Shown in pieces: positions 6,782-12,612 of a stretch of DNA of 64,000 bases (positions are counted from its first letter, which is position 1; every line of letters starts with the position of its first letter). Made by a program: the position numbers and the translations under genes. Where the stretch lies: contig CP076040.1 in assembly GCA_014529675.2 (NCBI GenBank), forward strand, positions 4,367,501 to 4,431,500, read 5' to 3'. Under the pieces are notes generated by a model. The model made no database searches. It was not told where the DNA came from and saw nothing but the letters and a program-made list of their open reading frames with translations. The stretch is from Opitutia bacterium ISCC 52 (GTDB taxonomy: Bacteria > Verrucomicrobiota > Verrucomicrobiia > Opitutales > UBA2995).

Positions 6782-7327
6782 TTAGTAGGTAAACGCCGCG
6801 ATGCTCAACACCAGACCGTAGCCAATCATCACTCCACCAATAAATTTAGGTCGACCGTGTGTTTGGAATAACCATTCAAAGAAATCCCGAGCTCTGTAGG
6901 GAGCCACCGCGAGGTAGATGGATAGCACAATCAACAGGTAGGCAAAGGTCACTAAAAATAAACGGGCCGGAATCTCATAAAAGGCGAAAGCTGAATCCAG
7001 CATTTCTGCAGCTCCAAGCAAAAAGCAGATACACACTCCTCGAATCGCCAGGAAGTCGGGCACAAAGAAATAGGATAAAACAGCGATAGCGCCAAAAAGC
7101 ATCATCAACTGATTGCGCCAATTGCCAAAATCAGCCTCTCCAAGTTGAGACACGCGATAAATAAACCAGAGTGCACCCAGCCCAAACGCCAGGATGGTAA
7201 ACCGCCTCGATCGAGGAAGGCCCTTGGCTACACTCGCAACAGTTTTGTCATTCCAGAATAGAATGCCTCCCAGGAGCAGTAATAGTGCGGCACTTAAAAT
7301 CGTTATAGTAAAAAGGGAAAGCGTCAT
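6782..7327 (-). CDS. Polytopic membrane protein, unknown function
   Basis: I do not recognise this 181-residue protein. It has about five or six hydrophobic helices: residues about 4-26, 44-60, 76-90, 93-112, 118-140 and 160-178. Loops are short and carry few charges. There is no signal peptide cleavage site and no evident catalytic motif. Its start codon overlaps the stop of miaB by one base, and gmk follows 17 bases later, so it sits inside a housekeeping operon. It may be an inner-membrane protein of unknown role. Confidence 0.75.
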   Translation of the reverse strand: MTLSLFTITILSAALLLLLGGILFWNDKTVASVAKGLPRSRRFTILAFGLGALWFIYRVSQLGEADFGNWRNQLMMLFGAIAVLSYFFVPDFLAIRGVCICFLLGAAEMLDSAFAFYEIPARLFLVTFAYLLIVLSIYLAVAPYRARDFFEWLFQTHGRPKFIGGVMIGYGLVLSIAAFTY

Positions 7328-8718
7328 TAATGGCTGTTGGAAAGAGTTACTGTATCTGCTTCTTCAATACCAGATAGGATAAGATCGCCATAGAGGCTAC
7401 TCTGGGTCGCACGGTTAACTTTCATCTGCACGATCTCACCGACCAGACGATCGCTAGCTGGGAGAAGGCAATTTCTATAGCCGCGGGTTTTACCTTGAAA
7501 TAGTTCTCCTCGTTTGGCCTTCCCCTCAATCAATACTTCCTGCGTGGTACCGACCAAAGACTCATTACGAGCAAACGAGGACTTGGCCAAGAGATCCAAC
7601 AAGCGGTGGTTCCGCGCTTCCTTCACTTCCTGGGGGATTTGATCTCCCATACTGGCAGCTGGGGTTCCCGTGCGAATGCTATATTTGAAAATAAAAGCCA
7701 TGTCATAGGCCACCTCTTCGAACAGGCTGCAGGTGTCCTCAAACTCCTCATCTGTCTCTCCAGGAAACCCGACAATGATGTCGGTCGAAAAATACATGTC
7801 GGGCACGGCGTTTCTCAGGCTATCCACGATTTCGAGATAGCGCTCACGGCTGTAGGGCCGATTCATGAGTTTGAGCATGCGGTTGGACCCTGATTGCGCA
7901 GGTAAATGCACATACTCACAGAGTTTGGAAAGGTCGCGATAGGCCTCTACTAAATCCTGCTTAAATCCACGTGGGTGAGGTGAAGTGAAGCGAATTCTCT
8001 CAATGCCCTTCACATCTTGAACCTTTTCGAGGAGTTGAACAAAGGGGGACTTCTTATTCCGAATAGGAATTTCCCGACGACCATAGCTATTTACGATCTG
8101 CCCCAAGAGCGTAACTTCCTTCGTGCCTGTCGCGGCCAGCTCTTCTACCTCGTCGACAATTTCTTCAATCGGGCGGCAACGTTCACTCCCTCGAGTTTTG
8201 GGGACAATGCAAAAGGCACAATTCATGTTGCAACCCTGCATGATGGAGACAAACGCACTTATTTGCCGATCGTCACTCAAGTGCTCGCGAATGGAATTCT
8301 GTGAGCCTTCTTCTTCTTCCAGGTCAACAATCGTGGTTGGATGAGGACCTAACCCTTTTTGAGTCTGGATTATATTATCCAGATGATCCGGGATCGCATG
8401 AAATTTCTGAGTCCCCACCAGGAGATCGAGATCTGGTAATTTGTCAACCAACTCGGTCCCACGGTTCTGAGCCATGCAACCCATGATTCCCAGAACAAAG
8501 TCCGGCTCAGTTTTCTTGCGCTTGGCCAGGTAGCCCGTTTTGCCGATTGCCTTTTGCTCTGCTTGATCACGCACCGAACAGGTGTTTAGCAATACCACAT
8601 CCGCATCGTGCTCATTATCAACCAAGGAGTAACCACGGCCACGCAGCATGGCACCGACTGCTTCGGAGTCGCGCTCATTCATTTGGCACCCGTAGGTTTT
8701 AATATACACCCGATTCAT
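7327..8718 (-). CDS. miaB: tRNA-2-methylthio-N6-dimethylallyladenosine synthase
   Basis: This 463-residue radical SAM methylthiotransferase modifies i6A37 to ms2i6A in tRNAs that read UNN codons. The N-terminal MTTase domain carries the three auxiliary-cluster cysteines Cys11, Cys47 and Cys81. The radical SAM CxxxCxxC motif is Cys163-Cys167-Cys170 ('GCNMNCAFC'). A TRAM domain forms the C-terminal 65 residues or so. The N-terminus 'VYIKTYGCQMNERDSE' and 'NTCSVRDQAEQK' fit MiaB rather than RimO or MtaB. It heads a minus-strand run with a membrane protein gene and gmk. Confidence 0.97.
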   Translation of the reverse strand: MNRVYIKTYGCQMNERDSEAVGAMLRGRGYSLVDNEHDADVVLLNTCSVRDQAEQKAIGKTGYLAKRKKTEPDFVLGIMGCMAQNRGTELVDKLPDLDLLVGTQKFHAIPDHLDNIIQTQKGLGPHPTTIVDLEEEEGSQNSIREHLSDDRQISAFVSIMQGCNMNCAFCIVPKTRGSERCRPIEEIVDEVEELAATGTKEVTLLGQIVNSYGRREIPIRNKKSPFVQLLEKVQDVKGIERIRFTSPHPRGFKQDLVEAYRDLSKLCEYVHLPAQSGSNRMLKLMNRPYSRERYLEIVDSLRNAVPDMYFSTDIIVGFPGETDEEFEDTCSLFEEVAYDMAFIFKYSIRTGTPAASMGDQIPQEVKEARNHRLLDLLAKSSFARNESLVGTTQEVLIEGKAKRGELFQGKTRGYRNCLLPASDRLVGEIVQMKVNRATQSSLYGDLILSGIEEADTVTLSNSH

Positions 8719-9306: not shown

Positions 9307-10680
9307 TCAATCCTTGGGCTGGACTCGAGGCTGGATTCGTTTTTTAGCCACTTTTTTTGCTGCTTTCTTCGCCGTTTTCTTTGCTACGATTTTTTTAGCC
9401 GGAGCCTTTTTAGTCGTTGGTCGCTTGGCGACTGCCTTTTTGACGGGAGCTTCCTTCTTCGCCTGCTTTTTGGCGGCTACTTTCTTTTTGGAAACTTTCT
9501 TAGCTGGAGCCTTTTTTACTCGCGGCTGCTTTTCTTCAGGCGGCTGCTTCGAGACTTTAGCATCCTTTTGGGAGGATTCAGGCTTTGGAGGAGTGGATTT
9601 AGTCTTAGGCGCTCTCCGCTCGTTGTTTCTCTTCTGAGGCTTCGGCTTTACCTCCTTTTCGTCCTGAGATTTCTTCGCAGGGTCTTCAGACCTTCTATTA
9701 TCCCTCGGTCCTCTTCCACGCCCCCTCCGTCTGCGACGTCGTCGTTTTTCGACCGGAGGACCATCTGTTGCTCCTAACTTTTCATCGGCAGCATCGTCCC
9801 GCCCCTGACTTGGATTTTTGGCTTCTTCTGCCACAATCTCGCGGGCCATATCCATATAGGTAGCTGGTCCTTTATCTTCAGACAGAGGCTCATCCTTTTT
9901 CTTAAGACGCCCTATGACGACCTTCTTGGGCGTACTCTTGGAAGCATAAGGTTTAGGCGCAGCCAACTTTCTGGCACTGGCTAAATCTTTCTGATCGGGT
10001 TCTCTCTTTTGAGGCCGCACCACCAACGTCGAGACCACAGACTCTCTTTTTTGGCTGACGACATAATCTACAGCTTGGGCTATGGCATTTGAGCACACAA
10101 TCAAGTCGTGATTATCACGTTCTGTGAATCCCTCCCTGAACATGTGTTCGGCATTGGCCGAATCGAGTATCAGGGAGCAAACTTTCACTTTGTCCTGTCG
10201 TACTTCCTCGTAGAGACGATTCGAAAATTCTTGAAGCGCTACTTCTGTAGATAAAAAGGCGCTGCCCAAACGATGGCTGCCGGGCAGGTCTGGAAATCCG
10301 ATGTTCAGAACATATCCCCGCAAACGAATTAACGACGGTAACACCAATCGGGTCAGTATTAGCGGAGCCAGGAGATTGGTATGCACCAATGACTCCAAAT
10401 CGTTTAAACCCAGCTTCTCATGAGGATCCAGACTCAAGTGGCGAGCATGGTTTACCAACACGTATATGTCTTTTTCTTTGTCGAGGATCTCCTGTACTAC
10501 CTGGCAAAGATGCTCGGTATTGGTGAGATCACAACTGACCGGTACAAAGTCGGTATGTTCGAGTGGGAAATTTTCAAAATCTGAGCCCAGACCGTAAACC
10601 CGGCAGCCCGTATCAATAAGCTTCTGGGAAATGGCTAGGCCAATACGAGTGTTTGCACCCGTGACAATTGCTATATCCAT
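9307..10680 (-). CDS. SDR-fold protein with histone-H1-like tail, catalytic residues lost
   Basis: This 457-residue protein is a fusion. Residues about 1-235 form a short-chain dehydrogenase fold, with 'IAIVTGANTRIGLAISQKL' as the nucleotide-binding motif. The catalytic YxxxK position reads 'FLSTE' within 'SAFLSTEVALQEFSNRL', so Tyr and Lys are replaced by Phe and Glu. The usual Ser strand reads 'VLNIGFPDLPG', and the NNAG motif is 'NHAR'. Residues about 310-330 hold an Arg/Gly patch ('KRRRRRRRGRGRG'), and the last 110 or so are Lys/Ala/Pro repeats (AKK, KKA) like bacterial H1/Hc1 proteins. It probably binds nucleic acid and is not an active reductase. Its start overlaps the lyase-like gene upstream by 10 bases. 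Confidence 0.85.
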   Translation of the reverse strand: MDIAIVTGANTRIGLAISQKLIDTGCRVYGLGSDFENFPLEHTDFVPVSCDLTNTEHLCQVVQEILDKEKDIYVLVNHARHLSLDPHEKLGLNDLESLVHTNLLAPLILTRLVLPSLIRLRGYVLNIGFPDLPGSHRLGSAFLSTEVALQEFSNRLYEEVRQDKVKVCSLILDSANAEHMFREGFTERDNHDLIVCSNAIAQAVDYVVSQKRESVVSTLVVRPQKREPDQKDLASARKLAAPKPYASKSTPKKVVIGRLKKKDEPLSEDKGPATYMDMAREIVAEEAKNPSQGRDDAADEKLGATDGPPVEKRRRRRRRGRGRGPRDNRRSEDPAKKSQDEKEVKPKPQKRNNERRAPKTKSTPPKPESSQKDAKVSKQPPEEKQPRVKKAPAKKVSKKKVAAKKQAKKEAPVKKAVAKRPTTKKAPAKKIVAKKTAKKAAKKVAKKRIQPRVQPKD

Positions 10681-11681
10681 GTTTCTATGGTTTCTGCAGG
10701 CACATACTTTGAGAGTGCGTCCTTCAACGTTTCGATCATCAGCGATCGTTCTTCCGTTGGGTAAGACACAAAAGATGGGCTGCGTTCAAAAGGATAATAA
10801 AGGATATCGGAATCAGTGCGCTGTTTCTTAATGCGCTTAAAATAGTCGGGATTCATCCGAAAAACGCCGAGACTCACATCACGAATTTTCTCAGCTGGCA
10901 AGTGCTTAAACACCTCCTTGAAAAAAGAGACGTAGATCTTCTCCCAATTGTCGATTCGGAGGACAGGGTCAAAACAGAGGCGAACAGGCCAACCACGATC
11001 CAGGCATTGTTTGATGGCTTGAATACGTTGCTCTGGAGAAGGGGTTAGTTGCTCATAGGCGGAAGCCACTTCAGGAGGCGACAATGTCCACGCAAGAATG
11101 GCCCGATCACAGGGTACTACGTCTTCCAATACACGCCAATTTGCACTCTTGGTTCGAATTTCAATAACCAGGTCTTCGTGCTCTCGAGTGAATTCGATAA
11201 AGCGCGAAGTGTAGGGAACAATCGCTTCGTAGGCTAGGAGGTCTGTGTCGTAAGAAATACAAAGATAGAGCGGCTCCTGCGGAAAAGGTCGATACTCTAT
11301 CGCCTGAGCAGTCGTGCGGTAAAAGTCGTCCTCATTCACAAAGACCACCATGTTACCGCTGGGATACATACCCTGAAGGTAGCAATAGTCACAATTGTAG
11401 ACGCAATTTAGCAGCAGAGAATTGTAGTAGAAATTCCGGTAACCGAAATCCTGACTAGCCATGGAGCCTTCATAGATAAGGTGATCCTTCTTGCGGGCCA
11501 GGATGAGCTTCGGGCTTCGCTTTTGTAGTTGGAAATTTTGGCCTGAGCGAGCAAAGACGTCCTTGTAATTCTTCACTGTCACCAGTTTGGAGTTCGACAA
11601 TCGATCCAGAATAACTCGGGTCATTGGGTATTTTTCTACCCCTTCCTCTAGGTACAGGTGTGAAAATCGTTTATGCCACAT
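10671..11681 (-). CDS. splB: Spore-photoproduct-lyase-like radical SAM protein
   Basis: This 336-residue protein matches spore photoproduct lyase in length and key residues. The radical SAM motif is Cys93-Cys97-Cys100 ('CVYNCDYC'), followed by the SPL-typical 'YLQG'. Cys141 ('LYLCISYDTD') sits where the hydrogen-donor Cys141 lies in the Bacillus subtilis enzyme. SPL reverses 5-thyminyl-5,6-dihydrothymine lesions in UV-irradiated DNA. No sporulation genes are in view, so the natural lesion here is uncertain. The gene overlaps the H1-tailed SDR gene by 10 bases and follows a nucleosidase gene at 103 bases. It could instead act on another substrate. Confidence 0.82.
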   Translation of the reverse strand: MWHKRFSHLYLEEGVEKYPMTRVILDRLSNSKLVTVKNYKDVFARSGQNFQLQKRSPKLILARKKDHLIYEGSMASQDFGYRNFYYNSLLLNCVYNCDYCYLQGMYPSGNMVVFVNEDDFYRTTAQAIEYRPFPQEPLYLCISYDTDLLAYEAIVPYTSRFIEFTREHEDLVIEIRTKSANWRVLEDVVPCDRAILAWTLSPPEVASAYEQLTPSPEQRIQAIKQCLDRGWPVRLCFDPVLRIDNWEKIYVSFFKEVFKHLPAEKIRDVSLGVFRMNPDYFKRIKKQRTDSDILYYPFERSPSFVSYPTEERSLMIETLKDALSKYVPAETIETWI

Positions 11682-11784
11682 GGAATAAAGGACTTAGGGT
11701 GAATGCGTTACTAGAGGTGGTTCAGTTGCCATCTACGAAAGGGAAGCTTGGGAGTGAGGCAGGAAAAGCAACTCGGAACGTCAG

Positions 11785-12612
11785 CTATTTGTTCAATGAT
11801 TGGATCATCGACTCAAACAATTGATTCCTCAGAGTTTTGTGTTTCGGCTGGGTGGCCAAATTCGGCTTTAGAATCTCTAAGTTTGCCCCTCCTCGAACAA
11901 GGAACCGAGTGACCGCATCTCGAAGTTGGTGAGTTTGCGTTTGAGTTAAGCGCATGCTTTCTGCAACTGAGCTCAATAAGGTTTCCTGTTCAGGAGATAG
12001 GATTGGATCAGTGGAGTCCAAATGCTCGCAATTCATCAGTGTTGGCAACCAATCATCCAAGGATTGCTCGTAGTAACGCTGCATCTGAGAATAATCATCA
12101 GAAGAAAATTCCAAGTAGTCAGTTGCTACTTTAAGAAAGAGCATTTGGTGGGGAGCCATAAAAAGATGGGCCGCCTGAAAAATACCTGACGCTTCCATAT
12201 CAACAATATCACAGGCTAAAATCGGTAGGTTGGCTGTTGTAACCGGTTGATCAAAGGTACCTAAGGAGGCTTCCTGCAAAGAGTGGTTGATCAACATATC
12301 TGGGAAAAACTCTCTCCCACTCGAATGATCCCAAATCTTGTTCACGGTAACAGCTTCTCCGAGGGCAATCTGGTCCACTACAGCTCCACACATGCCGACA
12401 TTGATCAAATGTTTGTCCTTACTTTCTCCCGCCAAATGAATGGCGTGAGTCGTAGCAATACCCGCATACAGTTTTCCAATACCGCTTATAACTAGTAAGG
12501 TATCGGCCGAAGTATAAACGGGGATGCGCCGGGAAGACGAATCCTGCTTAAGGCCAAGGGCATCGATAAGGGGACGAGCTTCTTGGCGAAGAGCTGTAAC
12601 AATGATCTTCAA
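11785..12612 (-). CDS. MTA/SAH-type nucleosidase with C-terminal helical extension
   Basis: This 275-residue protein has the purine nucleoside phosphorylase/MTAN fold in residues 1-195: 'NVGMCGAVVDQIALGEAV', the substrate motif 'VDMEASGIFQAAHLF', and the catalytic Asp in 'KVATDYLE'. MTAN-type enzymes cleave adenine from methylthioadenosine, S-adenosylhomocysteine and 5'-deoxyadenosine. Residues about 200-275 form an extra helical, charged region not found in minimal MTAN. It leads the nucleosidase, SPL-like, SDR-H1 run, so removal of the 5'-deoxyadenosine by-product of a radical SAM enzyme is a plausible job (inference). Confidence 0.8.
   Translation of the reverse strand: MKIIVTALRQEARPLIDALGLKQDSSSRRIPVYTSADTLLVISGIGKLYAGIATTHAIHLAGESKDKHLINVGMCGAVVDQIALGEAVTVNKIWDHSSGREFFPDMLINHSLQEASLGTFDQPVTTANLPILACDIVDMEASGIFQAAHLFMAPHQMLFLKVATDYLEFSSDDYSQMQRYYEQSLDDWLPTLMNCEHLDSTDPILSPEQETLLSSVAESMRLTQTQTHQLRDAVTRFLVRGGANLEILKPNLATQPKHKTLRNQLFESMIQSLNK

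Follow-up and report, generated by a model that had tools for sequence, protein, structure and literature searches.

In the hopanoid and futalosine pathways (HpnH/HpnG and MqnE/MqnB, respectively), adenosylation by a radical S-adenosylmethionine (SAM) enzyme is followed by deglycosylation by a nucleosidase. The by-product 5'-deoxyadenosine inhibits radical SAM enzymes and needs disposal (PMC8102628), and according to PMC5368176 the reaction of spore photoproduct lyase (SPL) regenerates SAM. Analysis of a 64,000-nucleotide stretch of Opitutia bacterium ISCC 52 (contig CP076040.1, positions 4,367,501 to 4,431,500; hereafter the window) concerned three adjacent genes, coding for a nucleosidase-fold hydrolase (NUC), an SPL-like radical SAM protein, and a short-chain dehydrogenase/reductase (SDR) pseudoenzyme with a tail resembling histone H1. 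The original prediction, made from the sequence of the window, interpreted them as a DNA repair or protection unit. The three-gene set probably does not serve to repair spore photoproduct. It is best read, at a probability of about 50%, as a metabolic module in which a radical SAM enzyme is accompanied by its own adenine-nucleoside hydrolase and by a reductase, the reductase having been repurposed in the Opitutales as a pseudoenzyme that binds nucleic acid.

Open reading frames (ORFs) and domain matches agreed with the original prediction on the coordinates of the three co-directional genes and on the 10-base overlap between the SDR and SPL-like genes. The features, in window positions and with protein lengths in amino acids (aa), are:

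11785..12612, minus strand: NUC, a 5'-methylthioadenosine/S-adenosylhomocysteine (MTA/SAH) nucleosidase-fold hydrolase of 275 aa with a TTG start (PF01048, 5.8e-11)
10671..11681, minus strand: SPL-like radical SAM protein of 336 aa (PF20903, 1e-14)
11250..11252, minus strand: Tyr144 codon of the SPL-like gene, in the alignment column of the SPL hydrogen-donor Cys
11259..11261, minus strand: Cys141 codon of the SPL-like gene, three residues N-terminal of the donor column
10974..10976, minus strand: Cys236 codon of the SPL-like gene, near-invariant, on the R234-x-C236-x-D238 strand
9307-10680, minus strand: tailed pseudo-SDR, entire gene, 457 aa (PF00106, 7.8e-18)
9991..10680, minus strand: SDR-fold domain of the pseudo-SDR, aa 1-230 (PF00106, alignments, and triad table)
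9310..9990, minus strand: basic low-complexity tail of the pseudo-SDR, aa 231-457 (composition and a sub-threshold HC2 match)

A 103-base gap separates NUC from the SPL-like gene, and a scan of its coding strand identified no promoter- or terminator-like sites. Read from the TTG start, the NUC N-terminus LKIIVTAL fits the family start pattern M-x-x-I-x-TAL.

A GTDB genome scan identified at least 569 relatives of the SPL-like protein, and the best 80 loci were taken for neighbourhood analysis along with one Fusobacterium locus from a plasmid collection (81 wider loci). These included Caloramator, Clostridium, Anaerocolumna, Paenibacillus, Fusobacterium, Latescibacterota, Marinimicrobia, Balneolales, Bacteroidetes, Leptospiraceae, and Opitutales. 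NUC adjoined the SPL-like gene in 77/81 loci, usually overlapping it, and a related SDR was found beside the module in 37 loci by profile search and 38 by BLAST. At the order level, the SPL-like protein was present in 24 of 53 relatives, and NUC was the next gene in all 22 orthologues with at least 34% identity. Fusobacterium vincentii (L049:5122-6993) encodes NUC and the SPL-like protein fused in one 623-aa ORF, followed by a canonical SDR. NUC, the SPL-like protein, and the SDR constitute a gene module conserved across many phyla, associated beyond chance, and the gene order underlying the original prediction extends far beyond Opitutia. No other gene family recurred across distant loci among the 81, and neither did repair or SOS genes near the module. 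A literature search, with most subscription papers outside its range, found no description of the module, which appears to be undescribed; the set is real and conserved, and its DNA-repair interpretation is unlikely. The 2.1 Mb Fusobacterium host record is filed as a plasmid and resembles a chromosome. No relatives were found in the IMG/VR phage scan, and phage carriage was rejected; two records filed as phage are unannotated faecal scaffolds that look misassigned because their adjoining ORFs look bacterial.

Structure prediction gives the radical SAM protein a true SPL fold. The AlphaFold2 model, built on a 65-sequence alignment (predicted local distance difference test, pLDDT, of 95.9), matched PDB entry 4fhc over its whole length in Foldseek (template modelling, TM, score of 0.85 over 345 columns with 17% identity), and the next class after SPL reached a TMq of 0.49 or less. 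The cluster motif CxxxCxxC (C93/C97/C100), noted in the original prediction, was present in 65/65 family sequences, and the Tyr99/Tyr101 pair of the SPL radical relay (YCY) was retained. The score against the NCBIfam SPL equivalog TIGR04070 was 67.8 bits, below its 400-bit cut-off. Columns were assigned from HMMER and MAFFT alignments with Bacillus velezensis SplB as control. The SPL hydrogen-donor Cys (Gt Cys140, Bs/Bv Cys141) aligned with Tyr144 of the window protein (Tyr in 63/65 sequences), and Cys141, put forward in the original prediction as the donor, lay three residues upstream of that column, opposite a Glu of SplB (Cys in 46/65). By alignment, the two residues numbered 141 are not homologous and agree in number by coincidence. 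Of the two outcomes that the original prediction named as refuting it, the misplacement of Cys141 thus applies at the level of sequence alignment, and the loss of neighbourhood in related genomes does not. The SPL hairpin W-G-R304-Y305-G-I-G is a pure seven-residue insertion relative to the SPL-like family, and in the Gt SPL structure its Arg304 and Tyr305 reportedly contact the lesion or DNA. Clostridium acetobutylicum SPL uses Cys74 from the opposite side of the pocket (PMC5368176), and the corresponding column, located via Gt Ser76, holds Ser, Ala, Pro, or Thr in the SPL-like family. One strand carries near-invariant Arg234 (65/65), Cys236 (64/65, no other non-cluster Cys being near-universal), and Asp238 (63/65) at positions whose SplB residues are small or aliphatic; owing to strand alternation these three should share one face, presumably that of the pocket. 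The SPL-like protein appears to have an active site rebuilt for another substrate. A second and more distant SPL-like branch (L043, L044, and L045) was also nucleosidase-paired, with the motif SGYDCDSLA and Arg at column 236.

NUC scored above the Pfam PF01048 (PNP_UDP_1) cut-off (42.7 vs. 25.1 bits), was related to MTA/SAH nucleosidases (MTANs) by profile comparison (5e-11), and its AlphaFold2 model (pLDDT 93.4) had MTANs as top Foldseek matches. Glu11, Glu140, and Asp165 aligned with the MTAN catalytic residues and were invariant in 56/56 sequences. Scores remained below the MtnN equivalog cut-offs (TIGR01704, 19.5/73.8 bits; PRK05584, 35.0/169 bits), and the family has its own motif (F/Y)(F/Y)PD...H and a conserved helical C-terminal extension of ~75 aa. 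The Clostridia-like scaffold L193:5835-7975 (MT835514, filed as phage) has the order SDR, shortened nucleosidase, and SPL-like gene, in which the catalytic front half of NUC is gone and the PD motif and extension are kept beside the SPL-like gene; a weaker remnant of this kind was found in Catonella (L124). Because L193 keeps the extension after losing the catalytic half, the extension probably docks NUC to the radical SAM protein. Genuine SPL regenerates SAM, and therefore a nucleosidase bound to the radical SAM protein points to a reaction other than that of SPL. The earlier idea that the nucleosidase clears 5'-deoxyadenosine is plausible for that compound or a related 5'-deoxyadenosyl product, in keeping with the MTAN fold and Glu11/Glu140/Asp165, but such clearance is not needed by a SAM-regenerating SPL (PMC5368176).

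The SDR occurs as an intact enzyme and as a tailed pseudoenzyme. Untailed module SDRs, all from outside the Opitutales plus the one Opitutales locus L080, were of ~235 aa with an intact cofactor loop and Asn-Ser-Tyr-Lys in 21/21 sequences. The tailed SDRs formed a single Opitutales clade in the tree (support 100/99), with Tyr and Lys lost in all 30 sequences read (0/30 intact) and K/A/R-rich tails of 160-500 aa in nearly all members readable at full length. The window protein keeps the Asn and has Ser/Tyr/Lys replaced by F/F/E, lacking the residue set of an active SDR, and the original description as a pseudoenzyme with an H1-like tail is borne out. Judged from these alignments, in one SDR clade within the Opitutales the catalytic residues disappeared and a basic H1-like tail was added. 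The tail in the window, of about 230 aa with a net charge of about +47, has an arginine-rich block followed by Lys/Ala H1-like repeats; no other protein encoded in the window has a K/A tail, and this one matched HC2 (PF07382) with 15.1 bits (E 0.025), below the Pfam gathering score of 40. Most likely, the tailed pseudo-SDR binds nucleic acid or polyanions. The same genome encodes a small protein whose Lys/Ala-rich, H1-like N-terminal stretch is joined to a short domain (L192:1507-1908), and in genome G017 an SMC-type gene directly follows the tailed pseudo-SDR gene on the same strand (L140:3-4532).

Among 130 Opitutales genomes, the tailed-SDR profile matched 35 (of which at least one, G082, may be untailed) and the SPL-like protein 32, with both in 13 and neither in 76. 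Since each occurs without the other (22/35 tailed-SDR genomes without the SPL-like gene and 19/32 SPL-positive genomes without the tailed SDR), tail and lyase are separable both ways. Their co-occurrence was weak (Fisher p 0.065) and was therefore not taken as evidence for a functional link. MiaB, another radical SAM enzyme, is encoded just downstream of the three-gene set at window 7327-8718, and its gene together with that for gamma-glutamylcyclotransferase marks the ancestral locus position in several Opitutales families. In G086 and G105, the tailed SDR occupies this position beside both markers and NUC-SPL is gone; the close relatives G003, G006, and G007 have NUC-SPL without the SDR, and G027 has an intact SDR inside the module and a tailed SDR elsewhere in the genome. 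The lyase does not require the H1 tail as a partner, because the tailed clade survives in SPL-less genomes. The proposed H1-like partnership fails accordingly, with the tail limited to one Opitutales clade, often without SPL, and absent from the SDRs of every other phylum examined.

Under the metabolic-module reading, the SPL-like radical SAM enzyme would form the core, and its substrate would be a small and probably charged molecule in place of spore-photoproduct DNA. NUC, docked to it through the C-terminal extension, would hydrolyse the adenine N-glycosidic bond of the leftover, being either free 5'-deoxyadenosine or a 5'-deoxyadenosyl product, and the ancestral SDR would reduce or oxidise a carbonyl or alcohol product. 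The Opitutales SDR would have lost its enzyme role and become a nucleic-acid or polyanion binder, still translated from the operon here and functionally independent of it. Several observations weigh against this reading. No neighbouring gene in the loci examined points to a pathway or substrate, and with seven further PNP_UDP_1 genes in the source genome, a hydrolase dedicated to 5'-deoxyadenosine would seem superfluous. Neither NUC nor the SDR can be obligatory, since 4/81 loci had no recognisable NUC and about half had no SDR. The HC2 match of the tail is below the Pfam cut-off (15.1 of 40 bits), and nucleic-acid binding is suggested by tail composition. A bolder version, in which a widespread three-enzyme pathway rests on a novel radical SAM reaction of an SPL-fold enzyme (the steps may be adenosylation, removal of adenine, and reduction) and its Opitutales reductase became a dead H1-tailed nucleoid protein in one event and outlived the pathway in many genomes, is rather doubtful.

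Within the metabolic-module reading, an adenosylation pathway analogous to HpnH/HpnG and MqnE/MqnB would have the SPL-like enzyme attach the 5'-deoxyadenosyl radical to an acceptor molecule, after which NUC would remove the adenine and the SDR would reduce the freed ribose aldehyde. This would account for each of the enzyme types, for the Asp165 of NUC being of the adenine type, for the loss of the SPL hydrogen donor, and for the tie of the nucleosidase to the radical enzyme, even as a fusion. It is nevertheless unlikely in this specific form, as no acceptor is known, the SDR is missing from many loci, L193 lost the nucleosidase catalytic half, and beyond the general radical SAM barrel the SPL-like protein is not close to MqnE in sequence or fold. 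An analogue of queuosine or 7-deazapurine salvage, with NUC freeing queuine, the radical SAM enzyme cleaving it to preQ1, and the SDR reducing the leftover cyclopentenone, would match the enzyme types of Clostridioides difficile QueK-QueL (PMC11477304; PMC11130926) and the frequency of the module in Clostridia and Fusobacteria. The tRNA-guanine transglycosylase (TGT) was present in most other genomes checked, including the source genome, but had no match in two genomes that carry the module, G024 (95% complete) and G027 (100% complete). The source genome has QueC near TGT, Rfam scans of 20 homologous loci and the window gave no preQ1 riboswitch, the published QueK belongs to another family (IPR023186), and the SPL-like protein had no PDB match other than SPL. 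Unsupported by the TGT/QueC distribution and the Rfam scans, salvage was rejected as improbable.

The original prediction envisages a spore-photoproduct repair or DNA-protection unit in which SPL would mend the lesion in DNA that the H1-like protein has compacted and the nucleosidase would dispose of 5'-deoxyadenosine. The SPL fold with its SAM motif, the retained Tyr99/Tyr101, a basic tail likely to bind DNA, and the adjacency of the three genes are all compatible with it. Set against these are the hydrogen-donor Cys replaced by Tyr, the Ser/Ala/Pro/Thr at the C. acetobutylicum-type position, deletion of the Arg304/Tyr305 lesion hairpin, a tail limited to the Opitutales and separable from the SPL-like gene, intact SDR enzymes in other phyla, and the lack of repair or SOS neighbours in the 81 loci, which together make this unit very improbable. 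For the tail, a rival that is possible, if somewhat less probable than its opposite, is that it is a generic low-complexity basic addition which attaches to RNA, ribosomes, or polyphosphate or aids solubility, with no nucleoid role. The Arg-rich block is similar to RNA-binding tails, and the L192 protein of the source genome also has a K/A stretch. The H1-like Pseudomonas aeruginosa protein AlgP acts at polyphosphate granules (PMC9239181), and because bacterial H1-like tails can act on DNA or at such granules, a nucleoid role is only one possibility. The retention of the tail in nearly all clade members over long divergence despite lost catalysis, and the SMC-type chromosome-organisation gene after the pseudo-SDR gene in G017, speak against a generic decoration.

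The SPL-like family is easily mis-annotated as spore photoproduct lyase or DNA photolyase, yet it is a radical SAM subfamily of its own that is widespread and has fixed partners. Its dedicated and sometimes fused nucleosidase makes the reaction testable via adenine and 5'-deoxyadenosine. The Opitutales SDR is a rare and well-bracketed case of a metabolic enzyme losing catalysis, gaining an H1-like tail, and coming to occur apart from its operon, and it bears on the origin of bacterial chromatin-like proteins.

Compared with SplB (TIGR04070; PDB 4fhc-4fhg), the SPL-like family shares the whole-length fold, CxxxCxxC, the YCY Tyr pair, the TK motif, and an invariant Arg275 at SPL Arg273, but differs in Tyr144 for Cys140, the absent hairpin, the Arg234/Cys236/Asp238 set, and the linkage to NUC and SDR. 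The SOS-linked SplB of Alphaproteobacteria and Deinococcus (TIGR03886) is a distant homologue (49.4 bits) that likewise has no donor-column Cys; it differs in having GENGD where the SPL-like family has SYDTD, in its C-terminal region, and in its DNA-repair setting, with dinB adjoining in L197. NUC has the fold and catalytic Glu/Glu/Asp of MtnN and aminodeoxyfutalosine nucleosidase, but carries (F/Y)(F/Y)PD...H, a shorter middle, the ~75-aa extension, and a radical SAM gene partner. QueK-QueL of C. difficile is also a nucleosidase and radical SAM gene pair, although with an unrelated nucleosidase family, and the module also occurs where no TGT was found and has no riboswitch or recurring transporter nearby. 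In HpnH-HpnG and MqnE-MqnB, an adenine nucleosidase from the superfamily of NUC acts after a radical SAM enzyme; their radical SAM families are different, and hopanoid or menaquinone genes do not recur beside the module. The Lys/Ala/Pro-rich disordered C-terminal tails of Hc1/Hc2 and AlgP resemble that of the pseudo-SDR, which is distinguished by its degenerate SDR N-terminus and an Arg-rich block before the Lys/Ala repeats.

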